A DNA stretch of 64,000 nucleotides, taken from positions 62,001 to 126,000 of IMG/VR virus record IMGVR_UViG_3300009108_000002, one strand, 5' to 3'. How positions within the stretch are numbered: position 1 is the first letter of the stretch; each line of letters starts with the position of its first letter. The notes under the pieces were generated by a model that saw only the letters and a program-made list of their open reading frames with translations, had not been told where the DNA came from and did no database searches. The position numbers and the translations under genes were made by a program. The stretch is from a virus. Of this stretch, positions 218-60,130 are shown piece after piece.

Positions 218-229
218 TAAGGAAAAGAT
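218..229 (-). promoter_or_regulatory. Phased 12-mer box, copy 1
   Basis: TAAGGAAAAGAT on the + strand (ATCTTTTCCTTA in the direction of transcription). It is the first of 18 near-identical copies, each lying between the terminator of one leftward cassette and the promoter of the next. Invariant apart from position 11 (A or C). This copy has no obvious promoter beside it. Confidence 0.8.
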
Positions 230-244
230 GATTGCAGCCGGAAT

Positions 245-272
245 AAAAAAATCCTGGGTTTTATCCCAGGAT
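245..272 (-). terminator. Intrinsic terminator
   Basis: Stem ATCCTGGG/CCCAGGAT followed in the leftward direction by a T-run. Ends the transcript of the 181-aa gene. Confidence 0.85.
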
Positions 273-301
273 TCATCTTTTCGGTATAGAAGAATTAGGA
301 A

Positions 302-847: not shown

Positions 848-877
848 AGTGGTGTCTCCTGTTTTCTTGATAATTCG

Positions 878-906
878 ATTATACCATACTACTAGATTGA
901 AGTCAA
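878..906 (-). promoter_or_regulatory. Sigma70-type promoter
   Basis: TTGACT, 17-bp spacer, TATAAT, reading leftward into the 181-aa gene. Confidence 0.85.
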
Positions 907-1012
907 TACATTCTTATTTCTTATTATATATAACGAAGTTCTGTTCGACTTGGTTACCAATCACATATTCTAACTTCACCTCCTCCTCCATCTCCTGGCG
1001 GTCCTGCGGATC

Positions 1013-1024
1013 TAAGGAAAAGAT
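1013..1024 (-). promoter_or_regulatory. Phased 12-mer box, copy 2
   Basis: TAAGGAAAAGAT on +. Lies 106 bp upstream of the -35 at 901-906, the longest distance in the set; C-rich pyrimidine tracts lie between. Confidence 0.8.
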
Positions 1025-1036
1025 AATATGGTCCAC

Positions 1037-1066
1037 AAAAAAAATAGGAGCTATTTCTAGCTCCTA
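1037..1066 (-). terminator. Intrinsic terminator
   Basis: Stem TAGGAGCTA/TAGCTCCTA with an 8-T tail in the leftward direction. Confidence 0.85.
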
Positions 1067-1096
1067 TATATCTTTTCGTTTCCTTTATATGGAGGA

Positions 1097-1447
1097 TTAG
1101 TCAGAGACTCCGTGTAAGCCTTTGTATGGAGCATTTTCCAAGACTGTAACGTAGTTGCTATCCAACTGAGACACCCACTCGATATACTCGGTTACTTCTT
1201 GTGTAGATACCCAACCTTTAACATCGTCCGTATCTGACAGAGGATAGTAACGGTCAGCATCCTTATGCCATACTGCAATCTCAGCAGTATTAGATGCATA
1301 CTCGTGGAAGTTTCCGTCGAAAGGATTGTCGTCTGCGTATTGCTCGTCAGTACGAGTGGAGCAGTAATTGTGTGGCCCCCACTGTACTGAAATTAACCAG
1401 CCATTGGTGAAGTCCATGTGAAAGCCGTAAGGAGTATTTTTAAACAT
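1097..1447 (-). CDS. Hypothetical early protein
   Basis: 116 aa from the ATG at 1447. A longer frame exists upstream but runs through the promoter at 1476-1504, so the start beside GAAGGA is used (MFKNTPYGFHMDF). Acidic, rich in Trp, Tyr and Asp, with no membrane segment and no family I recognise. Sole gene of its cassette. Confidence 0.75.
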   Translation of the reverse strand: MFKNTPYGFHMDFTNGWLISVQWGPHNYCSTRTDEQYADDNPFDGNFHEYASNTAEIAVWHKDADRYYPLSDTDDVKGWVSTQEVTEYIEWVSQLDSNYVTVLENAPYKGLHGVSD

Positions 1448-1475
1448 GTTGGTTCCTTCTTTATTTGATACTTGT

Positions 1476-1504
1476 AGTATAGCATAGATATACTCTGATG
1501 TCAA
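1476..1504 (-). promoter_or_regulatory. Sigma70-type promoter
   Basis: TTGACA, 17 bp, TATACT; followed by the recurrent leader TATCAAATAAA and a GAAGGA ribosome site. Confidence 0.85.
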
Positions 1505-1526
1505 GTCTATGAACCTGGAGATGCTT

Positions 1527-1538
1527 TAAGGAAAAGAT
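1527..1538 (-). promoter_or_regulatory. Phased 12-mer box, copy 3
   Basis: TAAGGAAAAGAT on +, 22 bp from the -35 of the next promoter. Confidence 0.8.
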
Positions 1539-1550
1539 CTATACAGTGGT

Positions 1551-1591
1551 AAAAAGAAAGAGCCAGATGTTGGAGGCCATCTGACTCTTTC
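1551..1591 (-). terminator. Intrinsic terminator
   Basis: 14-bp stem with one mismatch (GAAAGAGcCAGATG against CATCTGaCTCTTTC), then CTTTTTAC leftward. Confidence 0.8.
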
Positions 1592-1666
1592 TAAGGAAGT
1601 GGACTATGTTACCAGACTTGAGTTTTATTCTTATCTCTAATCTCTTTATCTATCTCTAAGCTTTGT

Positions 1667-1969
1667 TTAAGTAAGTCGGCTAGGATTGTCAAATTCTGAT
1701 TTATCTTCTGTAGTTCTGTTGCTATATCTGGCATTGTTTTCTGATAAAACCTTTGTCCCATTTGTGTTTGGAAGAATTCTGATGCCATTACCTAAGTATT
1801 CCACCTTATCTCTAGTATCGTGACCTATGTGCCACAGTTCATGTTTGTGGCACCAGTATGGACGTATTGGACTAAATAGTAAGGATACGTCGTCTCTGTA
1901 TTGTTCCGCAAAGCGTTGTGCGTCGTTCCAGATTCTGAAACGGTATTTATTCTTACATTTTTTTGCCAT
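1667..1969 (-). CDS. Hypothetical basic early protein
   Basis: 100 aa, starting MAKKCKNKYRFRIWN. Its ATG overlaps the TGA of the upstream gene (TGATG), with AGGTGA just upstream, so the two are translationally coupled. A CHKHELWHIGH stretch at about residues 39-50 could bind metal. No family recognised. Confidence 0.7.
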   Translation of the reverse strand: MAKKCKNKYRFRIWNDAQRFAEQYRDDVSLLFSPIRPYWCHKHELWHIGHDTRDKVEYLGNGIRILPNTNGTKVLSENNARYSNRTTEDKSEFDNPSRLT

Positions 1970-2256
1970 CAGTTCACCTGATAATGTAATTTTGGATACC
2001 GTCCACCTCCTGATTGTTGTTGCATTTCCCAATATTCTGGTAACTCCACTAGTATACCAGTTTTTATTTGTTGAGATAAACAAGTTCCGCATTGGCGCAT
2101 ATGATGTTGTATACGTCGGATTCTACGGTGGAATTTACCTTCCAGTTGATTAAGTGCCATCTGTATTTCGCCAACTTCACATAGTTCGGAATAAGCTTCG
2201 TCTTTTAAATGGTCGATAAGTTCTTCTGGTATAAATGGATTAAATCCGTGCTCCAT
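1969..2256 (-). CDS. Hypothetical early protein
   Basis: 95 aa, first gene of a two-gene cassette. The N-terminal half is acidic and helical (FIPEELIDHLKDEAY), the middle basic (KFHRRIRRIQHHMRQCGTC). No recognised domain. The stop overlaps the next start. Confidence 0.7.
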   Translation of the reverse strand: MEHGFNPFIPEELIDHLKDEAYSELCEVGEIQMALNQLEGKFHRRIRRIQHHMRQCGTCLSQQIKTGILVELPEYWEMQQQSGGGRYPKLHYQVN

Positions 2257-2287
2257 GTTTTTTCTCCTATTTATTTATTACTCTATT

Positions 2288-2316
2288 AGTATACCATATT
2301 TAAACGTGGATGTCAA
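2288..2316 (-). promoter_or_regulatory. Sigma70-type promoter
   Basis: TTGACA, 17 bp, TATACT. Confidence 0.85.
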
Positions 2317-2338
2317 GGTTTATCTCCCTGGCAGCAGG

Positions 2339-2350
2339 TAAGGAAAAGAT
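2339..2350 (-). promoter_or_regulatory. Phased 12-mer box, copy 4
   Basis: TAAGGAAAAGAT on +, 22 bp from the -35. Confidence 0.8.
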
Positions 2351-2362
2351 CATATACAGTGC

Positions 2363-2423
2363 AAAAAAAACACCCGCCGGAGCGGGTGCTTGTTTTTATA
2401 TTAAAACTCGCTTTTAGCGAGTT
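2363..2423 (-). terminator. Double hairpin terminator
   Basis: CACCCGC/GCGGGTG with an 8-T tail leftward (2363-2388), plus AACTCGC/GCGAGTT at 2405-2423 that overlaps the last codons of the upstream gene. Confidence 0.8.
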
Positions 2424-2668
2424 CCGAAATATAAGTCGTCTAACTCTGGTTCATTATCGAACTCAGCGTTAAGACCGAAATAATCTTCCCGAATAGGGTT
2501 GATTATTACTTCGACTTCGCCATCAGCGAATATTTTAGCGGTATATCCGCACTCATCGCAGTAAAAGTCGAAGTAGTCCAAAACATCGCCGTAGTATTGT
2601 GCCTCAGAAGTAACGAATTCTGCTAGGCAGTCGTTGGGGCAGGTGTTTAGTAAAGTTGCTAAAGTCAT
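2414..2668 (-). CDS. Small zinc-ribbon-like protein
   Basis: 84 aa, acidic. Cysteines C10xxxC14 and CDEC (about residues 45-48) could form one zinc site; YYGDVLDYFDFYC precedes the second pair. Leader is AATATCAAATAAAACGGAG as in the promoter-proximal genes, but no -35/-10 is visible, so it is probably read with the upstream 149-aa gene. Confidence 0.7.
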   Translation of the reverse strand: MTLATLLNTCPNDCLAEFVTSEAQYYGDVLDYFDFYCDECGYTAKIFADGEVEVIINPIREDYFGLNAEFDNEPELDDLYFGTR

Positions 2669-2723
2669 TATAAGTATTCTCCGTTTTATTTGATATTAGG
2701 TTGCCTATTCAGTTGTATAGCTA

Positions 2724-3173
2724 TTACTCCGCTTTTATCCAGTCTGGTTGCCAGTCGTCGTCCCATTCTAGTAATTCTGCGACTGGTTCAATTTTAGCTA
2801 ATTCCGCAATAGTTGGTTCCTCAACTTCAGATAATGGTACTTGGTCAAATTGTATTTCTACATCTACCATATCCCGTTCCACTTGTTCACGTGCATCCAA
2901 TTGTTCCATGATATGGCGTATGGCAGGTTTAGCGTCTACTTTTCCGTTTTTGGTTGGCATATTCCCAATTGCGACTCGGAGTGCCTCAACGTTAACGTCA
3001 GTGGCTTCATCTATCCAGTAACGTGTCCCTTCATCCTCAAGTGCATCTACGCCCAAGTCGTTGATTGATTCTAGAATCACCCGTGCTATCAGTGAAGTGA
3101 ATCCGAATTGTTGGTCAAGTCCTATTTGTATTTCGTTGTGGTTATTGTTTTTGGTATGTAGTTGGTTGTTCAT
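2724..3173 (-). CDS. Hypothetical acidic early protein
   Basis: 149 aa from the ATG at 3173 (MNNQLHTKNNNHNEIQ); a GTG at 3188 is also possible. Contains VEPVAELLEW-type acidic and helical segments and ends in Trp-rich EWDDDWQPDWIKAE. No family recognised. Driven by the promoter at 3207-3235 and perhaps a second one upstream. Confidence 0.7.
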   Translation of the reverse strand: MNNQLHTKNNNHNEIQIGLDQQFGFTSLIARVILESINDLGVDALEDEGTRYWIDEATDVNVEALRVAIGNMPTKNGKVDAKPAIRHIMEQLDAREQVERDMVDVEIQFDQVPLSEVEEPTIAELAKIEPVAELLEWDDDWQPDWIKAE

Positions 3174-3206
3174 ATTTTTTAATCTCACTTTTTATTTCTT
3201 AATAAT

Positions 3207-3235
3207 ATTATAACACATCTATGGCAGTAAGTCAA
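3207..3235 (-). promoter_or_regulatory. Sigma70-type promoter (proximal)
   Basis: TTGACT, 17 bp, TATAAT. Leader contains GTGAGATTAAAAAA, which also occurs after the distal promoter. Confidence 0.8.
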
Positions 3236-3305
3236 CCCCTAAACCGTACCAATTTTTTAGATGTTTTTTTTAATCTCACTATTTTTATTTATTCGTTCTA
3301 CTTAT

Positions 3306-3334
3306 ATTATACCATACTTTTCGCTATTTGTCAA
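3306..3334 (-). promoter_or_regulatory. Sigma70-type promoter (distal, possibly vestigial)
   Basis: TTGACA, 17 bp, TATAAT, followed by a second copy of the GTGAGATTAAAAAA leader but no gene before the proximal promoter. Looks like the remains of a deleted cassette. Confidence 0.7.
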
Positions 3335-3406
3335 GTCCAAAACCTACCAAAATCTACCTAATTTCAATGGATTTTAAAATAGGTCTGACAGAGGTCCGAT
3401 GATCCG

Positions 3407-3418
3407 TAAGGAAAAGAT
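3407..3418 (-). promoter_or_regulatory. Phased 12-mer box, copy 5
   Basis: TAAGGAAAAGAT on +, 72 bp from the -35 of the distal promoter; off the 11-bp series. Confidence 0.8.
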
Positions 3419-3432
3419 AATATGCGGGGTGG

Positions 3433-3467
3433 AAAAAAAATTCCCTAACTCAATGCGAGTTAGAGAA
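3433..3467 (-). terminator. Intrinsic terminator
   Basis: Stem TTCcCTAACT/AGTTAGaGAA with an 8-T tail leftward. Confidence 0.8.
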
Positions 3468-3493
3468 TCTTCTTGCGGAGAGCCGGACTAGGC

Positions 3494-3802
3494 TTAGTCC
3501 TTTTTACGGTCAATCCGCAGTTGCTGGTATTCCGTGGTCTTGAGGATTTCCGCTAAGTACTTCTTAGGAATGACAACCTTAGCAACCTTAGTGTCCACAG
3601 TCTCACGAGAGACTTCTATCAGCTTGACGATATGCTCGCCTACTTCGGCCTCGGTGAGTCCTTCAGTTGCCATGTACGCCTTGAGAGCGTCCTTTGTCTC
3701 ATTGAGACGTTTTTCCGCTTCCTTGGCGATTGCCTGACGTTGCAGATACTCTGCTACGTTGATTGCGAATTCCTCGATTTTTGTGCCATCTAGTGTAGTC
3801 AT
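3494..3802 (-). CDS. Hypothetical helical early protein
   Basis: 102 aa, strongly charged and helical (AIAKEAEKRLNETKDALKAY), suggesting a coiled coil in residues 15-45, then a beta-prone segment EVGEHIVKLIEV. Ribosome site CAGGAG. No family recognised. Sole gene in its cassette. Confidence 0.75.
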   Translation of the reverse strand: MTTLDGTKIEEFAINVAEYLQRQAIAKEAEKRLNETKDALKAYMATEGLTEAEVGEHIVKLIEVSRETVDTKVAKVVIPKKYLAEILKTTEYQQLRIDRKKD

Positions 3803-3834
3803 ATTGGTTTCTCCTGTTTTTATGTTGTACCAAT

Positions 3835-3863
3835 AGTATAGCAGGTATCGTATACGAAGTCAA
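3835..3863 (-). promoter_or_regulatory. Sigma70-type promoter
   Basis: TTGACT, 17 bp, TATACT. Confidence 0.85.
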
Positions 3864-3906
3864 TACTATTTTAGTACCAATTTGTAATCAATTTTTTGGG
3901 GATCAG

Positions 3907-3918
3907 TAAGGAAAAGCT
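3907..3918 (-). promoter_or_regulatory. Phased 12-mer box, copy 6
   Basis: TAAGGAAAAGCT on +, 43 bp from the -35. The flank GATTGAGTAAAAA resembles that of copy 12. Confidence 0.8.
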
Positions 3919-3940
3919 GAGATTGAGTAAAAAGGAGGAC

Positions 3941-3969
3941 AAAAAAATACCTTGTCGATGAACAAGGTA
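3941..3969 (-). terminator. Intrinsic terminator
   Basis: Stem TACCTTGT/ACAAGGTA with a 7-T tail leftward. Confidence 0.85.
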
Positions 3970-3998
3970 TTGAAGAGGTGTGGCTACGAGTAGGGGTT

Positions 3999-4184
3999 CT
4001 ATTTAACTAGAAAGGACGGACGAAGTGCGAGGAGAGTCTTAATGATGTCCTCTTTGGCTTCGTGAACATGTGCGTGGGTGAGTGCGCCTTCGGCCTCCAA
4101 ATCGTAGTAGTACTGGTGGATGTATGCGTCTATGGCTAGTTCTGCCAGTGCCTCGTAGTCGTAGTTGCCGTTTAGGTAAACCAT
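3999..4184 (-). CDS. Small helical early protein, paralogue of 6940-7134
   Basis: 61 aa. Shares the spaced pattern ELAxxAYIxxYYxDLxxExAL followed by EAKxDIIKxLL with the 64-aa gene at 6940-7134, and the two also share leader (CAGGAGAAACAACATG) and 12-mer flanks, so whole cassettes were duplicated. All helical; function unknown. Confidence 0.75.
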   Translation of the reverse strand: MVYLNGNYDYEALAELAIDAYIHQYYYDLEAEGALTHAHVHEAKEDIIKTLLALRPSFLVK

Positions 4185-4219
4185 GTTGTTTCTCCTGTCT
4201 CTCTTGATTTGATAGGTCT

Positions 4220-4249
4220 ATCTTATCATATCTAGTAAAAAACTGTCAA
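4220..4249 (-). promoter_or_regulatory. Sigma70-type promoter
   Basis: TTGACA, 18 bp, TAAGAT; weaker -10 than the others. Confidence 0.65.
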
Positions 4250-4305
4250 GTTCGTCTAGGCACGAATCTGTACGAGTTTTTTAGATACTTTGTTCTAAAG
4301 AAGCC

Positions 4306-4317
4306 TAAGGAAAAGAT
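4306..4317 (-). promoter_or_regulatory. Phased 12-mer box, copy 7
   Basis: TAAGGAAAAGAT on +, 56 bp from the -35. Confidence 0.8.
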
Positions 4318-4329
4318 AATACTCCAGGT

Positions 4330-4358
4330 AAAAAAAAATCCCCCGCTCTCACGGGGGA
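4330..4358 (-). terminator. Intrinsic terminator
   Basis: Stem TCCCCCG/CGGGGGA with a 9-T tail leftward. Confidence 0.85.
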
Positions 4359-4365
4359 CGCTGGC

Positions 4366-4491
4366 TTAGCGATTGTTGAAATCGCAATGTGGACAGTGGA
4401 CGGGGTGTCCGGGGTGGTCGAGGAAGGACAGGAATCGGAAGCCCTTCTGACAGTTCTTGCAACGCATCCACAGGTCGTTGAATCGTACCAT
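4366..4491 (-). CDS. 41-aa zinc-ribbon protein
   Basis: Reads MVRFNDLWMRCKNCQKGF and ends HCPHCDFNNR: two CxxC knuckles 23 residues apart, a minimal zinc ribbon. GGAGG five bases before the ATG is the best ribosome site in the region. Second gene of the cassette, 18 bp after the stop of the 68-aa zinc protein. Nucleic-acid or protein binding is inferred from the fold only. Confidence 0.75.
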   Translation of the reverse strand: MVRFNDLWMRCKNCQKGFRFLSFLDHPGHPVHCPHCDFNNR

Positions 4492-4509
4492 GTTAACCTC
4501 CTTCGGTGG

Positions 4510-4716
4510 TTACCCACCGTATCCCATGAGTATCAACTCTGGTGCGCCGTATACGGCGTACTCACCGCACTCTTCACACTCGTACTTGCGAGCGTCCGGC
4601 TCTACGGCGTAGTTCTCTGCACCGCATCCTAGGCAGAAGCCTATGGACTCCATTCCGAACATGGATTCCTCAGCTGCATCTAGAAGTTCCTGTGGGTCGA
4701 TAAGGTTGCTAATCAT
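4510..4716 (-). CDS. Small CxxC zinc-ribbon early protein
   Basis: 68 aa with FCLGCG at about residues 27-32 and YECEECGEYAVYGA at about 45-58: a compact zinc ribbon of a type often found as a stand-alone phage and host-associated protein, with a VYGAxELIL-like ending. Helical N-terminus IDPQELLDAAEESMF. Acidic. Role unknown. Confidence 0.8.
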   Translation of the reverse strand: MISNLIDPQELLDAAEESMFGMESIGFCLGCGAENYAVEPDARKYECEECGEYAVYGAPELILMGYGG

Positions 4717-4746
4717 TTTGTATCTCCTGATTTATTTGATAGATGT

Positions 4747-4775
4747 ATTATAGCATGCCTAAGGTCTATTGTCAA
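4747..4775 (-). promoter_or_regulatory. Sigma70-type promoter
   Basis: TTGACA, 17 bp, TATAAT: full consensus. Confidence 0.9.
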
Positions 4776-4809
4776 GATTGAGTTTTATACCTGGAACAGA
4801 GATGGATCT

Positions 4810-4821
4810 TAAGGAAAAGAT
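4810..4821 (-). promoter_or_regulatory. Phased 12-mer box, copy 8
   Basis: TAAGGAAAAGAT on +, 34 bp from the -35; followed on + by a purine-rich GGAGGAGGTGGAGGAGG tract. Confidence 0.8.
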
Positions 4822-4870
4822 AGTGGAGGAGGTGGAGGAGGCGGTGAAGTACGAATGTGGGAGTGGTAAC

Positions 4871-4897
4871 AAAAATACTCTAACTTTCGTTAGAGTA
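4871..4897 (-). terminator. Intrinsic terminator
   Basis: Stem TACTCTAAC/GTTAGAGTA, short T tail leftward. Confidence 0.8.
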
Positions 4898-4924
4898 CTT
4901 GGAAAAATTAGTTGAGAGATTAGA

Positions 4925-5167
4925 TTAAGATTCGTTGATAGCTTCGTCTAATGCCTCGATGTCTAAGTTCTGTGACCACAGGCTTATACCGTCTGTCGTC
5001 TTGATATATCCAAAGGTGTGATGCAGAGAGTCTCTAAGGGACTTGTAAGGCGTAGCGTAGCCTTTATGGCCTTTAGCGACGCAGTACAGAGGGTATTCGT
5101 TGAATAACCACAATGCCACATTCCAAGTCTCGTAATTCTTCCAGCCGTTGTAAGTTACGTCCGTCAT
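4925..5167 (-). CDS. Small NYETWNVALWL-family protein
   Basis: 80 aa from the ATG at 5167, preceded by AAGGAG; a longer frame upstream overlaps the neighbour and is not used. The NGWKNYETWNVALWLFNE opening is the signature of a family of small phage proteins of unknown function that I recognise by motif only. Second gene of its cassette. Confidence 0.75.
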   Translation of the reverse strand: MTDVTYNGWKNYETWNVALWLFNEYPLYCVAKGHKGYATPYKSLRDSLHHTFGYIKTTDGISLWSQNLDIEALDEAINES

Positions 5168-5181
5168 TTTTATGTTGCTCC

Positions 5182-5349
5182 TTAATCCTTGTTGTATACG
5201 CTCAGTTCCCAGGCTTTCTCCCAGGCCCACTCCCAGGTAGGTACATCTGACAGAACTTCTATCCCACCTAGCCATTCACGGATTACTCGTATTCCTGGGC
5301 CTAAAAGGTTCTTTTTAACAGTGATTCGGACTCCGTCTTGCGTCTGCAT
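5182..5349 (-). CDS. 55-aa hypothetical early protein
   Basis: Reads MQTQDGVRITVKKNLL and ends with a Trp-rich helix WEWAWEKAWELS. Starts after the standard leader TATCAAATAAATCAGGGG and is first in the cassette; its stop lies 14 bp before the next start, with that gene's ribosome site overlapping its end. No family recognised. Confidence 0.7.
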   Translation of the reverse strand: MQTQDGVRITVKKNLLGPGIRVIREWLGGIEVLSDVPTWEWAWEKAWELSVYNKD

Positions 5350-5379
5350 TTCGTATCCCCTGATTTATTTGATATATGT

Positions 5380-5408
5380 ATTTTAGCATGTCTAGGGGCT
5401 ATTGTCAA
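5380..5408 (-). promoter_or_regulatory. Sigma70-type promoter
   Basis: TTGACA, 17 bp, TAAAAT. Confidence 0.8.
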
Positions 5409-5441
5409 GGTTGAGTTTTACACTTGTAGCAGAGATGACTG

Positions 5442-5453
5442 TAAGGAAAAGCT
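5442..5453 (-). promoter_or_regulatory. Phased 12-mer box, copy 9
   Basis: TAAGGAAAAGCT on +, 33 bp from the -35; a long purine-rich (GGAGG-rich) tract follows on +. Confidence 0.8.
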
Positions 5454-5510
5454 GAGTGGAGGGAGAGGAGAGGGAGGTGATGCGAGTGGAGGTGGTGGAG
5501 GAGGAGGGAC

Positions 5511-5543
5511 AAAAAAATAGGAGTGGATTAATTTCCACTCCTA
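5511..5543 (-). terminator. Intrinsic terminator
   Basis: Stem TAGGAGTGGA/TCCACTCCTA with a 7-T tail leftward. A second palindrome CATCCTAC/GTAGGATG lies at 5554-5571 between it and the gene. Confidence 0.85.
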
Positions 5544-5595
5544 TGGAGCCACCCATCCTACGAGTAGGATGAGAAATATTGATATTGTAATCAGT

Positions 5596-5802
5596 TCACC
5601 TTTCACCATATTTTTCCCCCTTGGTGTCGAATGGTTCTCCAGTGTCTTCTACTAAGAATATGGCGTTGTCCTGACAGCGACTACAGAACCCTGATGGGCC
5701 TCCGTAAGGGACTGATGACATATCCAGTTCAAATGCCGGATATGCGAAACAGCACTCGGATACATATCCTTCTTCGTCTTTAATAAAAGTTATTGGAAAC
5801 AT
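5596..5802 (-). CDS. Hypothetical early protein with four cysteines
   Basis: 68 aa. CCFAYPAFELD at about residues 17-27 and FCSRCQDNAIFL at 39-50 give a possible zinc knuckle. Ribosome site CAGGAG. Sole gene in its cassette; no family recognised. Confidence 0.7.
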   Translation of the reverse strand: MFPITFIKDEEGYVSECCFAYPAFELDMSSVPYGGPSGFCSRCQDNAIFLVEDTGEPFDTKGEKYGER

Positions 5803-5834
5803 TCTAGTTCTCCTGCTTTTTATTTGATACTTAC

Positions 5835-5863
5835 AGTATAGCAGATATCTATGTTGATGTCAA
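5835..5863 (-). promoter_or_regulatory. Sigma70-type promoter
   Basis: TTGACA, 17 bp, TATACT. Confidence 0.85.
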
Positions 5864-5885
5864 GGTTGTACGAGATCCCCTACAT

Positions 5886-5897
5886 TAAGGAAAAGCT
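5886..5897 (-). promoter_or_regulatory. Phased 12-mer box, copy 10
   Basis: TAAGGAAAAGCT on +, 22 bp from the -35. Confidence 0.8.
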
Positions 5898-5909
5898 ACT
5901 GCTGCAGGC

Positions 5910-5938
5910 AAAAAAAAACGGGAGACAAAATCTCCCGT
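5910..5938 (-). terminator. Intrinsic terminator
   Basis: Stem ACGGGAGA/TCTCCCGT with a T tail leftward. A second A8 tract on + lies at 5951-5958. Confidence 0.85.
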
Positions 5939-5958
5939 CGTGAGTGGGATAAAAAAAA

Positions 5959-6108
5959 TCACCGTCGTGGACGATGATTCTTCTTGGCTTTCTCGATGTG
6001 CTTTAGCACCTCGGCCTCGCTAGCCTCACGAGTGTGAGATGCTCCGGCTCCGAAATGACCGTAACGGTCTTTGAAGCGTTTATTCGCTCGCTTGTCTGCT
6101 TTAGTCAT
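5959..6108 (-). CDS. 49-aa very basic protein
   Basis: Reads MTKADKRANKRFKDRYGHFG and ends IEKAKKNHRPRR. Almost every third residue is Lys or Arg, suggesting nucleic-acid binding. GGAGA seven bases upstream. It is the only gene in the early arm with a long (about 115-base) structured leader, which points to post-transcriptional control. Confidence 0.7.
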   Translation of the reverse strand: MTKADKRANKRFKDRYGHFGAGASHTREASEAEVLKHIEKAKKNHRPRR

Positions 6109-6220
6109 TTCTTATCTCCGGCCTTGGGTTGCTGAGAGACTGCCTTCACACCGTGGGACTCGTCACCCGCTAGCTTGAGTGTAGAGTGAAGCCCTCAGGC
6201 ATCTGGGTGTCTCTCAACGT
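6109..6220 (-). ncRNA. Candidate structured 5' leader RNA
   Basis: From the expected transcription start near 6220 to the 49-aa gene, the leftward RNA can form a closing stem GAGAGAC/GTCTCTC (about 6207-6213 with 6139-6145) extended by GTTG/CAAC across a two-base bulge. Inside it are CCC/GGG and CTTCAC/GTGAAG helices and a GGG/CCC hairpin. The ribosome site lies outside the closing stem. It could be a protein-binding or ligand-binding regulator; it matches no riboswitch class I know. Confidence 0.45.
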
Positions 6221-6226
6221 ACTAAT

Positions 6227-6255
6227 AGTATACCACACAGTAGTAGTGATGTCAA
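6227..6255 (-). promoter_or_regulatory. Sigma70-type promoter
   Basis: TTGACA, 17 bp, TATACT. Confidence 0.85.
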
Positions 6256-6302
6256 GTATCCCTGAAGAACTACCTGGAGGAAGTGCGGGACCCCAGGACT
6301 GT

Positions 6303-6314
6303 TAAGGAAAAGCT
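6303..6314 (-). promoter_or_regulatory. Phased 12-mer box, copy 11
   Basis: TAAGGAAAAGCT on +, 47 bp from the -35. Confidence 0.8.
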
Positions 6315-6338
6315 GCCGGGGATCGCTGCAGCGTGTAT

Positions 6339-6364
6339 AAAAAAAATCCCCGTCAAGCGGGGAT
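6339..6364 (-). terminator. Intrinsic terminator
   Basis: Stem ATCCCCG/CGGGGAT with an 8-T tail leftward. Confidence 0.85.
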
Positions 6365-6385
6365 TTTGTGGAGAACAGTGTGATA

Positions 6386-6415
6386 ACTTTACCACGAATA
6401 TCGGTGGCAAGTCAA
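6386..6415 (-). promoter_or_regulatory. Possible promoter between gene and terminator
   Basis: TTGACT, 18 bp, TAAAGT, lying between the stop of the 108-aa gene and the terminator at 6339-6364. A transcript from it would be only about 40 bases. May be a relic. Confidence 0.4.
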
Positions 6416-6438
6416 TCCTTTAGCTTCAAATGTGGAAA

Positions 6439-6765
6439 CTATATCACAGAAACGTTATCTGAATTATCCACCCACGTTTGCACATCCTTTAGAGGAATAC
6501 GTTGCGTTAGTCCCATTTGAGTTCGCCACGCTTTAGGAGTTCCTTCTACTAGTGTAGGACAGAGGCCGAATGACAGCCAACGTTCTGGCGTATATCGTGT
6601 GGCAACTATCGTGGCTGTAAATTCAGAGTTGCCTTCTTCCTGCTGAAGTTCAGCTATGATTCCGTTATCGTAACGTAGCATATCCTTCATGTATTCTTCA
6701 GCGGATGTACAACCTAGCCAAGTCTTGCCTTCGATGTGAATGGTATTTACTTTAATGTTGGACAT
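6439..6765 (-). CDS. Hypothetical early protein
   Basis: 108 aa, mixed alpha/beta, with KTWLGCTSAEEYMKDMLRYD near the N-terminus and a Trp-rich middle. No family recognised. Ribosome site CAGGAG is 11 bases upstream of the ATG. Its last codons read GTGATATAG, an 11-base pattern that recurs near 8957 and 9060. Confidence 0.7.
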   Translation of the reverse strand: MSNIKVNTIHIEGKTWLGCTSAEEYMKDMLRYDNGIIAELQQEEGNSEFTATIVATRYTPERWLSFGLCPTLVEGTPKAWRTQMGLTQRIPLKDVQTWVDNSDNVSVI

Positions 6766-6800
6766 TTCTGTGATATCTCCTGTGTATTTAATCTACTAGT

Positions 6801-6829
6801 AGTATAGCATATGTTATGATATAAGTCAA
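6801..6829 (-). promoter_or_regulatory. Sigma70-type promoter
   Basis: TTGACT, 17 bp, TATACT. Confidence 0.85.
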
Positions 6830-6840
6830 CCAGGAAGGGG

Positions 6841-6852
6841 TAAGGAAAAGCT
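6841..6852 (-). promoter_or_regulatory. Phased 12-mer box, copy 12
   Basis: TAAGGAAAAGCT on +, 11 bp from the -35. Confidence 0.8.
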
Positions 6853-6874
6853 AGAATTGAGTAAAAAAGGTAAC

Positions 6875-6904
6875 AAAAAAACCACTGTGAAAAATACAGT
6901 GGTT
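6875..6904 (-). terminator. Intrinsic terminator
   Basis: Stem AACCACTGT/ACAGTGGTT with a T tail leftward. Confidence 0.85.
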
Positions 6905-6939
6905 TTGTAGTGCCGGATGGAGGTTTATGCCAGGTGAGG

Positions 6940-7134
6940 TTACATCCCTTTCAGAGATGCCACCTGCCCCCAGCGTACACCAACGGAGAGCAGGTGCTTG
7001 ATGATGTCCTGCTTGGCCTCGTAGAGGTGTGTCGTGGAGAGTGCCTCCTCCTCCTTCAGGTCAGAGTAGTACTTGTCGATGTATGCTTCGACTGCTAACT
7101 CTACCAAGCCTTCCCAGTTAGTCGTTCCGTTCAT
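6940..7134 (-). CDS. Small helical early protein, paralogue of 3999-4184
   Basis: 64 aa; matches the 61-aa gene at 3999-4184 through WEGLVELAVEAYIDKYYSDL and EAKQDIIKHLL, with a different C-terminal tail. Leader and ribosome site are nearly identical to its paralogue. Function unknown. Confidence 0.75.
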   Translation of the reverse strand: MNGTTNWEGLVELAVEAYIDKYYSDLKEEEALSTTHLYEAKQDIIKHLLSVGVRWGQVASLKGM

Positions 7135-7168
7135 GTTGTTTCTCCTGCCTCTTTTGATTTGATAACTT

Positions 7169-7197
7169 ATTTTACCATACTTCTAAACATCTGTCAA
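7169..7197 (-). promoter_or_regulatory. Sigma70-type promoter
   Basis: TTGACA, 17 bp, TAAAAT. Confidence 0.8.
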
Positions 7198-7209
7198 GGT
7201 CTATAGGCG

Positions 7210-7221
7210 TAAGGAAAAGCT
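7210..7221 (-). promoter_or_regulatory. Phased 12-mer box, copy 13
   Basis: TAAGGAAAAGCT on +, 12 bp from the -35. Confidence 0.8.
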
Positions 7222-7233
7222 ATACAGCAGGTT

Positions 7234-7260
7234 AAAAAAAACTCCAGCTTACGCTGGAGT
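7234..7260 (-). terminator. Intrinsic terminator overlapping a gene end
   Basis: Stem ACTCCAGC/GCTGGAGT with a T tail; the upstream arm lies in the last codons of the 87-aa gene. Confidence 0.85.
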
Positions 7261-7512
7261 CATTTTGCACCTATTGGTGCATGTGACACCGTCACAGTGT
7301 CCGTGACACTCGTAACGCTCTGGCACGTGAGCACAGATTTGTTCCCATGTTAGGGAATTGTTCTTGTGCTCTGCCATGCGCTTGAATGTGGCCTCACGGA
7401 TGTCTTTCAGGCGGTCTTCCACGCCATCTGTTCCGAGTAGGCGTATGGCCTCTAGGTGAGCCTGTAAGGCTGTTCCTAGTTCGATACCACGGATGGTTTT
7501 TTTGTTGGTCAT
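7249..7512 (-). CDS. Hypothetical early protein with Cys/His C-terminus
   Basis: 87 aa. The C-terminus ERYECHGHCDGVTCTNRC is a Cys/His cluster able to bind zinc; the first 60 residues are helical. GGAGA eight bases upstream. No promoter directly upstream, so probably read through from the 68-aa gene at 7693-7899. Confidence 0.7.
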   Translation of the reverse strand: MTNKKTIRGIELGTALQAHLEAIRLLGTDGVEDRLKDIREATFKRMAEHKNNSLTWEQICAHVPERYECHGHCDGVTCTNRCKMTPA

Positions 7513-7544
7513 ATTCGTAATCTCCGATATTAATTTAAATTAAA

Positions 7545-7670
7545 GTTTGGTCAGAGTACGTTTTATGATTGCCAACAGATTGCCTATTCTATTGTTAATG
7601 TGCCAGTCTGAAAGTACCTCCACACTTTCAAACTTAATTTCTTATATATCTATTATACGTGTCATCGCGG
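7545..7670 (-). pseudogene. Possible degenerate small gene
   Basis: In one leftward frame ATGACACGTATAATAGAT meets a TAA after seven codons, then stays open for about 34 codons (containing ESVEVLSDWHINNRIGNLL) to TAA near 7545. A GGAGG sits inside it. No usable start follows the stop, so it looks like a broken small gene, or simply the 180-base spacer between two genes. Confidence 0.25.
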
Positions 7671-7692
7671 CATTTGTAGGTCTGTGCCTAGC

Positions 7693-7899
7693 TTATATGT
7701 CCCAAGGCACAATCCGTACTTTCAATTTAAAGTCTCGTGCTATCTTACGCCATAGGTCGTGCTTGTCTCGTCGGATGACTAGGATGTTAGTAGCTTCGTG
7801 TAGCCAACGATTGCGAATTTGCTTCAGGTCTTTTTTCGCTTTACGAATAGCGTCTGGTGTGCCTCTGAATTCTACTGCTGTGTGAATGTTCCTTGCCAT
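7693..7899 (-). CDS. Small basic early protein
   Basis: 68 aa, basic, alpha/beta (AVEFRGTPDAIRKAKKDLKQ, then ILVIRRDKHDLWRKIARDF). GGTGG ribosome site. Looks like a compact nucleic-acid-binding fold but matches nothing I can name. Confidence 0.7.
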   Translation of the reverse strand: MARNIHTAVEFRGTPDAIRKAKKDLKQIRNRWLHEATNILVIRRDKHDLWRKIARDFKLKVRIVPWDI

Positions 7900-7934
7900 C
7901 TGTGACCACCGCCCTGTCTTTATTTGATGTAATC

Positions 7935-7963
7935 ATTATAGCATACTTCTAGACATCTGTCAA
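7935..7963 (-). promoter_or_regulatory. Sigma70-type promoter
   Basis: TTGACA, 17 bp, TATAAT: full consensus. Confidence 0.9.
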
Positions 7964-7987
7964 GTACCAATATAATCTCTAGTATAG

Positions 7988-7999
7988 TAAGGAAAAGCT
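7988..7999 (-). promoter_or_regulatory. Phased 12-mer box, copy 14
   Basis: TAAGGAAAAGCT on +, 24 bp from the -35. Confidence 0.8.
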
Positions 8000-8027
8000 A
8001 ACACACCACTAGCAGAGCGCGGGAGGC

Positions 8028-8057
8028 AAAAAAATACCCTGTCGAAGTGACAGGGTA
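8028..8057 (-). terminator. Intrinsic terminator
   Basis: Stem TACCCTGTC/GACAGGGTA with a 7-T tail leftward. Confidence 0.85.
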
Positions 8058-8112
8058 CGCATAATGCCCGACCATTATTTGAGAGTGCCTCAGGCACGGC
8101 CTATTGTAAGTT

Positions 8113-8439
8113 TTACCAGGTCACCTCCCGTGTCCACCATTTAGGATTGAGATAGTCCAGAGCCTCACGCTCTGTGGAACTAATGTCCCGTGGGACATTT
8201 ATATCGTATAGCCATGTGTAGTGTCGCTCTGTGGGAATCACCACTCCTTCCCACTGCTCTGCTTGCCAAGGAGCGTTGAGAATTTCCAGACATTCCGCAC
8301 AAGTGTAAGTCAGATGTTCTAGCCTATTCTCGGCATCGTACTGTAGGTCTGCGGAGATTCCCGTGTGAGAGGCATCCTCTACGCACTCACCGTTGAGGAT
8401 GATTGCCAGTTCAGAGATGCCGTCGATGTTGGGATTCAT
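8113..8439 (-). CDS. Hypothetical early protein
   Basis: 108 aa from the ATG at 8439 (MNPNIDGISELAII), chosen over a GTG three codons upstream because AGGAAG lies at the right distance. Acidic, many Trp, with a TYTCAECLEIL segment near residue 51. No family recognised. Confidence 0.7.
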   Translation of the reverse strand: MNPNIDGISELAIILNGECVEDASHTGISADLQYDAENRLEHLTYTCAECLEILNAPWQAEQWEGVVIPTERHYTWLYDINVPRDISSTEREALDYLNPKWWTREVTW

Positions 8440-8471
8440 TCCAGTCACTTCCTGTTTGATTTGATGCTCTT

Positions 8472-8500
8472 AGTATACCAGAGTATTCTGCGTCTGTCAA
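8472..8500 (-). promoter_or_regulatory. Sigma70-type promoter
   Basis: TTGACA, 17 bp, TATACT. Confidence 0.85.
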
Positions 8501-8545
8501 GGCGTTGCCTGCGCTCTACTGGTGGTGTGATATAGTAAGGACCCT

Positions 8546-8557
8546 TAAGGAAAAGCT
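8546..8557 (-). promoter_or_regulatory. Phased 12-mer box, copy 15
   Basis: TAAGGAAAAGCT on +, 45 bp from the -35. A partial echo, TAGTAAGGACC, lies just before it. Confidence 0.8.
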
Positions 8558-8587
8558 GCTGCAGGACCCGCAGGCGGTGTGAGGCAC

Positions 8588-8621
8588 AAAAAAACCTCCA
8601 CGGAGGTGAAACGTGGAGGTT
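8588..8621 (-). terminator. Intrinsic terminator
   Basis: Stem AACCTCCACG/CGTGGAGGTT with a 7-T tail leftward. Confidence 0.85.
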
Positions 8622-8639
8622 CGGGAGAGTTACCGTGGA

Positions 8640-8894
8640 TTAGGCGTAGAATCCACGAATGTCCTCAGCTACTCGATGCTGTGCTTCCTCTGCGAGGATT
8701 TGGTACTCAGGATGAGTGTCCGTGAGTAGCAGTAGTACCGCTTCCCATTCCCATCCGTGGATTTCCTGTGCTACGACTTCGGAGTCGTATTTTGCCATCA
8801 CTGTGGCGCAGTGGTTGTAGACAGAGTCTACGGTAGCTGGGTCGTTGTGGGATTCCGTGGTGGAGATGCTAGCGATTAGTTGTGAGTCAGTCAT
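8640..8894 (-). CDS. Hypothetical early protein
   Basis: 84 aa, acidic and helical (VYNHCATVMAKYDSEVVAQE, then EWEAVLLLLTDTHPEYQILA). AGGAG ribosome site. No family recognised. Confidence 0.7.
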   Translation of the reverse strand: MTDSQLIASISTTESHNDPATVDSVYNHCATVMAKYDSEVVAQEIHGWEWEAVLLLLTDTHPEYQILAEEAQHRVAEDIRGFYA

Positions 8895-8924
8895 AGTGAT
8901 GCTCCTATATAGTTTGATATTCTT

Positions 8925-8953
8925 AGTATACCTTAGCCTAGGAGCCGTGTCAA
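8925..8953 (-). promoter_or_regulatory. Sigma70-type promoter
   Basis: TTGACA, 17 bp, TATACT. The only early promoter whose upstream side meets the small-RNA cassette instead of a 12-mer box directly. Confidence 0.85.
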
Positions 8954-9071
8954 CTAACTATATCACGTTTATTCCACGTTCAAAATACTAGAAATCGTTC
9001 TGTAAGTCGTTTTAAGGCCACTCAAGTCTGAAAGGTGATGTAGAAGTCCCGAAGAGTGTTAACTATATCAC
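8954..9071. other. Spacer with a repeated 12-mer
   Basis: TAACTATATCAC occurs at about 8957-8968 and 9060-9071, and ACTATATCAC at the end of the gene at 6439. No reading frame is visible. It may be the remains of a deleted gene. Confidence 0.35.
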
Positions 9072-9135
9072 AAAAAAGTAGCAGAAGGATGTGAACCCCG
9101 CTCCCCTTCCCCGTTTGTAGTTACATCCTTCTGCT
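9072..9135 (-). ncRNA. Candidate stand-alone hairpin small RNA
   Basis: A perfect 13-bp stem (AGCAGAAGGATGT with ACATCCTTCTGCT, 9080-9092 and 9123-9135) encloses a 30-base loop holding three GGGG runs in the leftward RNA, then six T. The predicted start of the promoter at 9142-9171 falls on the first base of the stem, so the whole transcript would be the hairpin, about 64 bases. No reading frame fits. It occupies a normal cassette slot, so it is probably a regulatory RNA rather than just a terminator. Confidence 0.6.
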
Positions 9136-9141
9136 GGCAGG

Positions 9142-9171
9142 AGTATAGAGGAGGCGGAACAGTGTTGGCAA
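9142..9171 (-). promoter_or_regulatory. Promoter of the hairpin RNA
   Basis: TTGCCA, 18 bp, TATACT, directly abutting a 12-mer box. Confidence 0.65.
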
Positions 9172-9183
9172 TAAGGAAAAGCT
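9172..9183 (-). promoter_or_regulatory. Phased 12-mer box, copy 16
   Basis: TAAGGAAAAGCT on +, 0 bp from the -35: the closest placement of all. Confidence 0.8.
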
Positions 9184-9207
9184 ACTATAAAGGATAATTT
9201 GTTGCAC

Positions 9208-9237
9208 AAAAAAAATCCTCCCACATTGTGAGAGGAT
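9208..9237 (-). terminator. Intrinsic terminator
   Basis: Stem ATCCTCcCACA/TGTGaGAGGAT with an 8-T tail leftward. Confidence 0.85.
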
Positions 9238-9261
9238 AGGGGGCATCGGGAGGAGCGAGGC

Positions 9262-9495
9262 TTACCAGCCTTGAGGGCCGTCCCCGAAGTCCTCAAGGAA
9301 GTGGAACCCGTCCACGCCGTGAGCGGGATACTGCGGGAGGTCGTCGTCCTCCTCATGGCAGTCGCAGAAGCAGACCTCCATGATTTCGGAGCCATCCGCA
9401 CGGCGGGAGTCGCCACCGTGCCAGCGAACTGGAAAGGTGTCGGCCTCGCACTCGGAGCAGATATTGGAAGGGTTGATGTTGGTTTCGGCTAGCAT
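9262..9495 (-). CDS. Small acidic zinc-binding protein
   Basis: 77 aa from the ATG at 9495; the longer frame upstream would run into the promoter. ICSECEADTFPVRWHGG and EVCFCDCHEEDDDL give a CxxC plus CxCxCH cluster. Very acidic C-terminus ending GDGPQGW. Ribosome site AGAGGTG. Function unknown. Confidence 0.75.
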   Translation of the reverse strand: MLAETNINPSNICSECEADTFPVRWHGGDSRRADGSEIMEVCFCDCHEEDDDLPQYPAHGVDGFHFLEDFGDGPQGW

Positions 9496-9525
9496 TGGGT
9501 CACCTCTGTTAAACTTGATGAACAT

Positions 9526-9554
9526 AGTATAGCACAGTGTTACCTAGTTGTCAA
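9526..9554 (-). promoter_or_regulatory. Sigma70-type promoter
   Basis: TTGACA, 17 bp, TATACT; leader ATGTTCATCAAGTTTAACAG is shared with the next cassette. Confidence 0.85.
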
Positions 9555-9600
9555 GTATTACTGCAGGTCCATCTGCGGGTCCACACAGGACCAGGGTCCA

Positions 9601-9612
9601 TAAGGAAAAGCT
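9601..9612 (-). promoter_or_regulatory. Phased 12-mer box, copy 17
   Basis: TAAGGAAAAGCT on +, 46 bp from the -35. Confidence 0.8.
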
Positions 9613-9661
9613 GTAGGGGGATCGCGCTGCGGGATGGAGGAGTGCGCTGCGTCGTCATGCC

Positions 9662-9693
9662 AAAAAAAATCCCTAGAACGATTGTTCTAGGGA
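9662..9693 (-). terminator. Intrinsic terminator
   Basis: Stem TCCCTAGAAC/GTTCTAGGGA with an 8-T tail leftward. Confidence 0.9.
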
Positions 9694-9722
9694 CTTGACG
9701 CTGCTCGGTTGTTGGTGTGCTA

Positions 9723-9929
9723 CTACTCAGCGAATAGTCGTGGCTCGTAGCGTACCAGGTATCCACCCAGACCCATCATTGCCTTGAGTACCAATTCTTC
9801 TTGGTTGCCGTCGAAGTCCGTGTCGAATGCTTCGTACCCGCTATTGACCTTGTTTACGATGAATCCTGCGTGTCGGAGTTCCTTGAGGGTTCCCTGGGTT
9901 GCTTTCTTAGTCCAGAGTTGTGAGGTCAT
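9723..9929 (-). CDS. Hypothetical small early protein
   Basis: 68 aa with a basic helical N-terminus (WTKKATQGTLKELRHAGF) and a beta-rich remainder (YEAFDTDFDGNQEELVL). AGGAG ribosome site. Resembles a winged-helix-sized fold but no family is recognised. Confidence 0.7.
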   Translation of the reverse strand: MTSQLWTKKATQGTLKELRHAGFIVNKVNSGYEAFDTDFDGNQEELVLKAMMGLGGYLVRYEPRLFAE

Positions 9930-9960
9930 TTCGTATACTCCTGTTTAACTTGATGAACAT

Positions 9961-9989
9961 AGTCTACCCTATCCACAGCCATTTGTCAA
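9961..9989 (-). promoter_or_regulatory. Sigma70-type promoter
   Basis: TTGACA, 17 bp, TAGACT. Confidence 0.75.
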
Positions 9990-10024
9990 TCCCCTATTTC
10001 TCGTGCCTGGAGGCATGGAGGCTG

Positions 10025-10036
10025 TAAGGAAAAGCT
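10025..10036 (-). promoter_or_regulatory. Phased 12-mer box, copy 18 (last)
   Basis: TAAGGAAAAGCT on +, 35 bp from the -35. No further copy is seen to the right. Confidence 0.8.
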
Positions 10037-10065
10037 AGATTTGAGGTATTTGCGGGCTAGAGTAA

Positions 10066-10105
10066 ATAAAAGCCCCCAGTAGTGGTGGGTAGACTACTGA
10101 GGGCT
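10066..10105 (-). terminator. Intrinsic terminator
   Basis: Stem AGCCCcCAGTAGT/ACTACTGaGGGCT, then TTTATTTAC leftward. Confidence 0.85.
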
Positions 10106-10123
10106 TAGTGAGGAGGTATTTAT

Positions 10124-10291
10124 TTAAAATAATGGTAAATGTGTTCGATACTTATCATTCACTGAGAGATGCTTTTGATATGCTTTATCGTATGTGTAAC
10201 CACAAGTGGGATGAGTTACTAAGTAAACTATCCCTGAGATGTAACTTCCAAAACCTGCCACTAGTAGTACCGATGCAAGAGTGGATTCCAT
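10124..10291 (-). CDS. 55-aa small membrane protein
   Basis: Reads MESTLASVLLVAGFGSYISG, one membrane segment at about residues 5-26 (continuing IVYLV), then a polar tail YDKAYQKHLSVNDKYR. AGGTAA lies about ten bases upstream. Preferred over an overlapping + frame because all neighbours are leftward, the frame ends just before the terminator and the hydrophobicity pattern is protein-like. Unknown role. Confidence 0.6.
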   Translation of the reverse strand: MESTLASVLLVAGFGSYISGIVYLVTHPTCGYTYDKAYQKHLSVNDKYRTHLPLF

Positions 10292-10321
10292 GATGTAATC
10301 TTACCTGTCCCATAAATAAAT

Positions 10322-10726
10322 TTATGAAACGCTAACTGCGGGTTGGCTGATTTTAGCCACATTCCATTTTCCAAAATTCCGGCACTGAATACTACAGTAC
10401 ATGAACTTATATCCTCGTGTCTTCTGAGCATTGTAGATAGACTGAAGAATTTCTTTACTCTGTCCACAATAATCACACCGGAATGATACTCTGCAATCTA
10501 CTGACCTGCAGGTAGTAGAACAGTAGGCTTTTCTGCCTGACTTCAAAGCCTCGCCACATACCGTACAATTCCCATAGTCTGGTCGTACTCTAGTGGGTAG
10601 TCCTTCAGTCTTTAGTATCTGTCGTACTCGTTCTCGACTTACCGATAGTAATTCGGCTATCCGTACAGCGGGTAGGTCTGGATGATTGGATCGTAGTGTT
10701 ACGATTCGCTCCCTGGTTGTAGCCAT
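10322..10726 (-). CDS. HTH plus zinc-finger protein
   Basis: 134 aa. Residues 1-45 look like a helix-turn-helix (VRIAELLSVSRERVRQILKT). Then three Cys pairs: CTVCGEALKSG, CDYCGQSKEIL and YCSIQCRNFG. Likely a DNA-binding protein of the HNH/homing-associated HTH type but without a clear nuclease motif. Its start overlaps the upstream gene by 28 bases with CAGGAG inside that gene. Confidence 0.7.
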   Translation of the reverse strand: MATTRERIVTLRSNHPDLPAVRIAELLSVSRERVRQILKTEGLPTRVRPDYGNCTVCGEALKSGRKAYCSTTCRSVDCRVSFRCDYCGQSKEILQSIYNAQKTRGYKFMYCSIQCRNFGKWNVAKISQPAVSVS

Positions 10727-11187
10727 TTAACAGACTCCTGAACAGTCATTACTGACTTAATTGGTCTGCCTCGGCCTCTAGTAGTCCTTTTGGGCTTATT
10801 ATGTTGTCTAGGGTGTTGTGCCTTTGACTCAAATTCCCCAACCTTGCTTGCGCCTAACTTATCAGTTAACGCTTCGAATAGTGCCTCGTAGACTGCATCG
10901 ACAGGGTCGTTATATGCGTGTCTATCGCTATCCACCTTTAAACTAGTACCGTCTATGGCAATCTCAGCACTCCAACCTATCATATCATTCTTCAATACTA
11001 ATGTCAAAGGATATTTAATATTTGTGATAATGTTGTGAAGTGATTTGGTGTGATTCCAGCCTCTACCCTCGCAATGTTGACAGGGCTTCAGCTTATAACT
11101 ATTCAACCCCATACAATGCATACAGGGTATCTGTAGTTCGTCTATCACTGAGGCTACTGCGTTACAAATACTGTTGGTAGTAATCAA
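10699..11187 (-). CDS. DnaJ-type zinc-finger-like protein
   Basis: 162 aa from a TTG preceded by GGGAGAGTGAGGG. CMHCMGLN and CQHCEGRGW near residues 22-45 resemble the CxxCxG repeats of DnaJ, here only two. Ends basic (KPKRTTRGRGRPIKS). Overlaps both neighbours, so a coupled three-gene run. Function unknown. Confidence 0.65.
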   Translation of the reverse strand: MITTNSICNAVASVIDELQIPCMHCMGLNSYKLKPCQHCEGRGWNHTKSLHNIITNIKYPLTLVLKNDMIGWSAEIAIDGTSLKVDSDRHAYNDPVDAVYEALFEALTDKLGASKVGEFESKAQHPRQHNKPKRTTRGRGRPIKSVMTVQESVKWLQPGSES

Positions 11188-25635: not shown

Positions 25636-25705
25636 ACCTTTCTCCATGCAGTTATAGTCTTACATTGACTTTTGAATTTGACCCCATTTCTGAGGACATG
25701 GCAGT

Positions 25706-36895: not shown

Positions 36896-36911
36896 AAATA
36901 ATTATTGCAAT

Positions 36912-36940: not shown

Positions 36941-36985
36941 ATTTTATACTATTATAATAGTTAGTCCTATTAGGAGGGGCAAAGT

Positions 36986-58729: not shown

Positions 58730-58743
58730 TAAGGGAGTAATAA

Positions 58744-60120: not shown

Positions 60121-60130
60121 AGGATGATTA

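Follow-up and report, generated by a model that had tools for sequence, protein, structure and literature searches.

Few small RNAs encoded by phages are known, mostly from prophages, and the function of those of T4 was, according to PMC4933390, still unknown in 2016. The same source describes two RNAs of phage PAK_P3, sRNA1 and sRNA2, which are about 100 nt long and late, and one of which lies between tRNA genes (PMC4933390). As presented there, these RNAs and the band C/D RNAs of T4 resemble the candidate considered here in being short non-coding RNAs of lytic phages, with functions or targets that are unknown or hypothetical (PMC4933390). The RNAs of PAK_P3 and T4 were detected, whereas our candidate is predicted from sequence only, as a single hairpin of about 64 nt. 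The PeSLs of T4-type phages, described as cassettes of promoter and stem-loop that shuffle genes (PMC4503421, PMC3950731), offer a likeness of organization. As far as those descriptions go, the common features are promoters and stem-loops around small genes and cassettes that are swapped between related phages. The likeness concerns the zone rather than the hairpin: it is for the zone that cassette structure and presence or absence between relatives are observed. Unlike in the PeSLs so described, the promoters and terminators of our phage surround a 12-mer box, and the hairpin follows a promoter-like site as its putative transcribed body.

Phage-encoded anti-sRNAs of pathogenic E. coli, attributed to Tree et al. 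in 2014, reportedly act as decoys for host small RNAs. The candidate, also a phage RNA, would likewise act through capture, but its pairing is non-specific within the phage's own box zone. With ordinary intrinsic terminators the hairpin shares a perfect stem followed by a U-tract. It differs from them in its 30-nt G-rich loop, in a promoter-like site that would start transcription on the stem, and in its place after a box instead of before one. Our literature search found no published description of the locus, which is not proof of its absence in print.

A zone of small boxed cassettes

The window, a stretch of 64,000 bases to which unprefixed coordinates refer, comprises bases 62,001–126,000 of the 141,341-base IMG/VR virus record (G000) of an uncultured phage and has a G+C content of 39.8%. 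Its left part is filled with small genes that point leftward, many of them equipped with a sigma-70-type promoter and a terminator of their own, and its right part carries head and tail genes. In the phage collection, the major capsid protein (38002–39306) matches haloarchaeal tailed viruses only, with an identity of about 31% across 38% of the query, yet the promoters and terminators of the record are of bacterial type. A transposase-like protein (24547–25647; phrog_4285, E 1.7e-45) lies within a block of phage genes.

The box pattern TAAGGAAAAG[AC]T (+ strand) occurs 23 times in the 141-kb record, in one orientation throughout and confined to 55.8–72.0 kb; 18 of the boxes lie at window 218–10036 and five more at G000 55,832–60,452. 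The usual position of a box is between the terminator of one gene and the next promoter. In 20 of 23 cases in G000 and in nine of nine in the related record G001, a strict promoter stands no more than 260 nt after the box. Boxes are not strict promoter markers; three of those in G000 have no strict promoter within that distance. Neither of two boxes that lie 59 bases apart, at G000 55,832 and 55,891, is followed by one, and a box can thus exist without a promoter. Elsewhere, tandem strong promoters (3334 and 3235, 99 bases apart) stand ahead of a single gene. A repeated gene family with the motif HCxMGMER (22203–22697; G000 59,180–59,779; L235 8977–9630; L236 7734–8267), which by eye resembles tyrosine or dual-specificity phosphatases, has one copy among the boxed cassettes of each virus.

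A hairpin unit between a box and the next gene

An earlier note had drawn attention to one box that is followed by the promoter TTGCCA-18-TATACT, a predicted start on the first base of a perfect 13-bp stem, a 30-base loop and a T6 tract, and we found every one of these elements in place (Table 1).

Table 1. Coordinates of the hairpin unit and its neighbours in the window
Feature	Position	Strand	Remarks
Terminator of preceding gene	9215..9237	-	10-bp stem, 3-nt loop, T-run; 5' of box
12-mer box AGCTTTTCCTTA (TAAGGAAAAGCT on +)	9172..9183	-	Cassette head
-35-like hexamer TTGCCA	9166..9171	-	Abuts box
-10-like hexamer TATACT	9142..9147	-	18-nt spacer; no TG ahead (no extended -10)
5' arm of perfect 13-bp stem, AGCAGAAGGATGT	9123..9135	-	Predicted +1 at 9135
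30-nt loop	9093..9122	-	Three GGGG runs
3' arm of stem, ACATCCTTCTGCT	9080..9092	-	
T6 tract	9072..9077	-	AC (two bases) between stem and tract
Promoter TTGACA-17-TATACT of protein gene	8925..8953	-	Consensus, 11/12 match; same box-to-box cassette
Protein gene, 84 aa	8640..8894	-	No PHROG match; same box-to-box cassette as hairpin

The segment from box to stem measures 36 nt, which is exactly the sum of the −35 hexamer, the 18-nt spacer, the −10 hexamer and the 6 nt that separate TATACT from the 5′ arm; the +1 was placed from the position of the −10. Judged by its sequence, the candidate gene would have a promoter of its own, matching the consensus at 10 of 12 positions with an 18-nt spacer. 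None of 20,000 mononucleotide shuffles of the segment equalled this match, and 16 reached nine. On the opposite strand, taken as background, 10-of-12 sites number two in the 16.5-kb box zone and eight in 54 kb. Scored with a matrix built from 29 box-linked promoters, the candidate reaches 13.1 bits, while 19 of the 20 box-linked promoters of G000 score 22.5–28.9 and one scores 13.4; it is the weakest of the phage's set. The spacer is 17 in 28 of the 29 box-linked promoters against 18 here, and the distance from box to −35 is zero, compared with 11–106 for the box-linked promoters of the other 19 G000 boxes and 43–135 in G001.

Scores equal to or above that of the candidate occur at 48 of 182,000 positions (both strands, 91 kb). 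Three of these sites are on the plus strand; among those on the minus strand, the candidate takes rank 45. We inspected the downstream regions of 41 of these 45 minus-strand sites, the candidate included, leaving out four lower-scoring ones. At 33 of the 41, a rule-based search found a Shine-Dalgarno-like site and a frame of at least 25 aa. Among the remaining eight, six have by eye a start codon near the predicted +1 followed by an open frame, one, at 65334, has a second promoter downstream, and the last is the candidate itself.

The hairpin locus is real and non-random. Its stem is the longest perfect one in the window among 22 stems of at least 10 bp with loops of 3–60. Thirty simulated 64-kb windows, generated by a first-order Markov chain trained on the window, contained on average 0.033 stems of at least 13 bp (one in total), none of them T-tailed. 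For the predicted RNA, with its stem of 13 bp at 46% G+C and U6 after 2 nt, the fold energy is −23.9 kcal/mol (z = −3.97); the opposite strand folds too (z = −6.1), but without a T tail. T-tailed perfect hairpins (stem of at least 9, loop 3–60) number 13 on the minus strand of the whole record and two on the plus strand, and the loop of 30 stands against 4–19 in the other 12 on the minus strand. Nowhere else in the 141,341 bases do three GGGG runs cluster.

The 64-base RNA has a single ATG, located in the 5′ arm, with TAA immediately after it and a Shine-Dalgarno-like AGAAGG touching it; because these bases adjoin the AUG directly, its use is unlikely. Inspection of all six frames of the 64 nt gave no usable reading frame, the sense strand yielding AUG-UAA only, and thereby ruled out a hidden peptide. 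No Rfam match in the window exceeded the gathering threshold. In a permissive Rfam search of 8940–9240, the only match in contact with the hairpin was to a snoRNA, on the plus strand and at the hairpin's edge (E 2.6).

The unit is not alone in its cassette. The next box lies at 8557–8546, and between the two boxes stand both the hairpin unit and gene 8640–8894, whose promoter begins 218 nt from the box, the longest box-promoter distance observed. The view that the cassette encodes only a hairpin RNA and nothing else therefore had to be abandoned, as it also holds this gene with its own TTGACA-17-TATACT at 8953. Because gene and consensus promoter share the cassette of the hairpin, the unit looks like an addition between box and promoter, or like a cassette followed by an unboxed one. 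The 12-base sequence GTGATATAGTTA occurs as a direct repeat on either side of the segment that follows the hairpin on the minus strand (9071–9060 and 8966–8955, 105 bases apart), and a near-copy lies on the plus strand at 8527–8538, after the next box.

Boxes and cassettes in related viruses

G001 and its twin G049, which is the same virus (99.98% over 19 kb), carry nine boxes with cassettes other than those of G000. A blastn comparison of the first 18 kb of the window with the first 19 kb of G001 gave no match, though G000 and G001/G049 do share a few related proteins in the wider region. The box, which stands in one orientation at cassette borders, is kept in G001/G049; because it is kept where the cassettes otherwise differ, its conservation suggests that it serves in the exchange of cassettes or in regulation.

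G010 is the nearest syntenic relative, with 84% DNA identity over window 35,903–38,741, and matches the window on both sides of the hairpin zone: its bases 1062–1637 match window 10,311–10,896, and its bases 398–491 match window 6,515–6,608. Between these flanks we saw by eye one terminator, one promoter and no box, and the whole G010 record holds none. The stretch of seven boxes and seven small genes, with the hairpin, is thus absent from G010. The seven boxed cassettes are missing as one block (stretch L290 of G010, 1–1100, against window 6,500–10,900), which we take as sequence evidence that the array was gained or lost.

No homologue of the hairpin was found by blastn and pattern searches of the collections tried, and protein searches with the two flanking genes found no relatives in viral_contigs. 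A 16-mer of the 5′ arm occurred in 13 stretches; a script found no box in any of them, and inspection by eye no second arm. With both arms required and the loop left free, the viral contigs gave one stretch, L271, in which no T tail was seen by eye in 190 bases. The genome contigs also gave one, L297, a terminator-like hairpin; we judged this match to be chance, by rough reasoning from the commonness of perfect stems. Scans of viral_contigs for the box pattern showed no further many-box contig stretch among the matches listed, nor among the 35 stretches of a second scan. We looked for boxes in the records of 48 of 79 major-capsid loci (the remaining 31 are mostly short contigs), and one record, G001, had them. 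A search with the phosphatase-like protein led to five records: G010, G004, G016 and G015, which the capsid-based set already covered, and G049, the only new one, which has nine boxes; G015 has a single match to a laxer pattern, by eye inside an open frame.

Candidate targets of the loop

The earlier note had suggested that the G-rich loop pairs with pyrimidine tracts near the boxes or folds as a G-rich structure. The first suggestion did not survive shuffling. On the sense strand of the 16.5-kb box zone, 22.4% of near-box windows fall within the best-pairing 5%, compared with 3.6% of other windows; loops shuffled with their G-runs kept gave a near-box share of 17.2% on average, and 11 of 100 reached the real value. 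The best energy (−30.4) was matched by 47 of 100 such shuffles. Since these shuffles do nearly as well, the pairing is not specific and is explained by G-richness alone. The tracts themselves are probably outside transcripts, because they are located between a terminator and the next promoter. The best sense-strand site, at the 3′ end of the neighbouring gene (9264–9235, −30.4 kcal/mol), was rejected as a target, as 11 of 100 G-run-keeping and 3 of 100 plain shuffles paired there equally well or better.

A G-rich structure within one molecule is disfavoured, the loop having three G-runs and not four; an intramolecular four-strand quadruplex is not formed by three. Two further functions were discarded. 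The CsrA/RsmA consensus is matched at 10 or more of 12 positions at 26 places in the record, and so common a match carries no weight. A link to the start of replication found no support in the cumulative GC skew, which does not turn at 71.1 kb.

Small RNA gene or terminator

We tentatively read 9171–9072 (minus strand), at close to even chances, as a small RNA gene of about 64 nt that is self-contained and self-terminating, and attach lower confidence to a trans role exerted by its loop. A sigma-70-type promoter abutting the box would start the transcript on the first base of the 13-bp stem. Transcription would end on the T6 tract, about 64 bases further on, and one hairpin would thus be RNA body and terminator alike. 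The product would be a hairpin with a paired 5′ end, likely resistant to decay, that exposes one unpaired G-rich loop. We infer its transcription, termination and stability from parts of a compact unit that the earlier note had proposed and that all appear to be present: a promoter, weak at 13.1 bits, a predicted start on the stem, no usable frame and a U-tract. Also in support of an RNA gene, these parts abut (box, one promoter length of 36 nt, stem), and the boxed zone has RNA genes, a tRNA-Leu in G000 (60,549–60,634) and a tRNA-Tyr in G001. Counting against it are the weakest promoter of the set, the lack of any homologue or Rfam match in our searches, and a loop pairing that G-richness explains. 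The trans role is placed in the loop because the loop is the only free and odd part of the RNA. That it captures a C/U-rich host RNA or an RNA-binding protein, as decoy or antisense, is doubtful, and its target is speculative.

The main rival to a small RNA gene, and a serious one, is a special terminator. Acting in cis only, the hairpin would be an unusual intrinsic terminator or insulator that halts read-through from gene 9262–9525, or from weak promoters, ahead of the strong promoter of gene 8640–8894, the promoter-like site being coincidental or weak. We hold this to be somewhat unlikely. The stem and U-tract do lie on the correct strand, in a zone dense in perfect stem-loop terminators, and the identical arm pair in the cellular genome L297, where it encloses a 15-nt loop, looks by eye like an ordinary terminator; such arms can thus serve as plain terminator stems. 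Yet a normal terminator already precedes the box (9237–9215), and at no other box does a T-tailed hairpin stand between box and promoter (perfect stems of at least 9 in G000; by eye in G001). The 30-nt G-rich loop is atypical, and a terminator leaves both the promoter-length gap of 36 nt and the start on the stem unexplained.

It is very improbable that the TTGCCA promoter makes a long leader of gene 8640–8894, with hairpin and T6 as a conditional terminator that would open when the 5′ arm or loop is bound by a protein or ribosome. Such an attenuator would fit a hairpin that lies between promoter and gene with no intervening box, and the start-stop AGAAGG-AUG-UAA in the 5′ arm. However, an 11-of-12 promoter that belongs to the gene itself stands 218 nt from the box, the 117 nt from T6 to that promoter are unstructured (z = +1.6), the AUG adjoins its Shine-Dalgarno-like bases too closely for likely use, and the CsrA match, being one of 26, adds nothing. 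We also think it improbable that the locus is a feature of the DNA itself or a relic, either a palindrome recognized by a DNA-binding protein or a scar left where cassettes were exchanged. The hypervariability of the zone would suit such an origin, as would the absence of the hairpin from syntenic G010, together with that of seven boxes and seven small genes, and the direct repeat GTGATATAGTTA around the segment just downstream; against it, the arms have no second copy in the record, T6 and promoter share a strand and have the correct positions on it, and the skew shows no turn at the site.

A wider proposal built on the small RNA gene is that boxed, exchangeable cassettes also carry an RNA-only payload, whose G-rich loop would be a trans decoy for C-rich regulatory RNAs of the host, rRNA or an RNA-binding protein during takeover; we regard it as quite unlikely. 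If the locus is not transcribed, it is an odd terminator of little weight. If it is transcribed, it would be a very compact RNA gene that packs promoter and terminator into 100 bases, within a zone of cassettes that vary from one relative to another, and would suggest that hypervariable phage cassettes be screened for RNA payloads besides small proteins.
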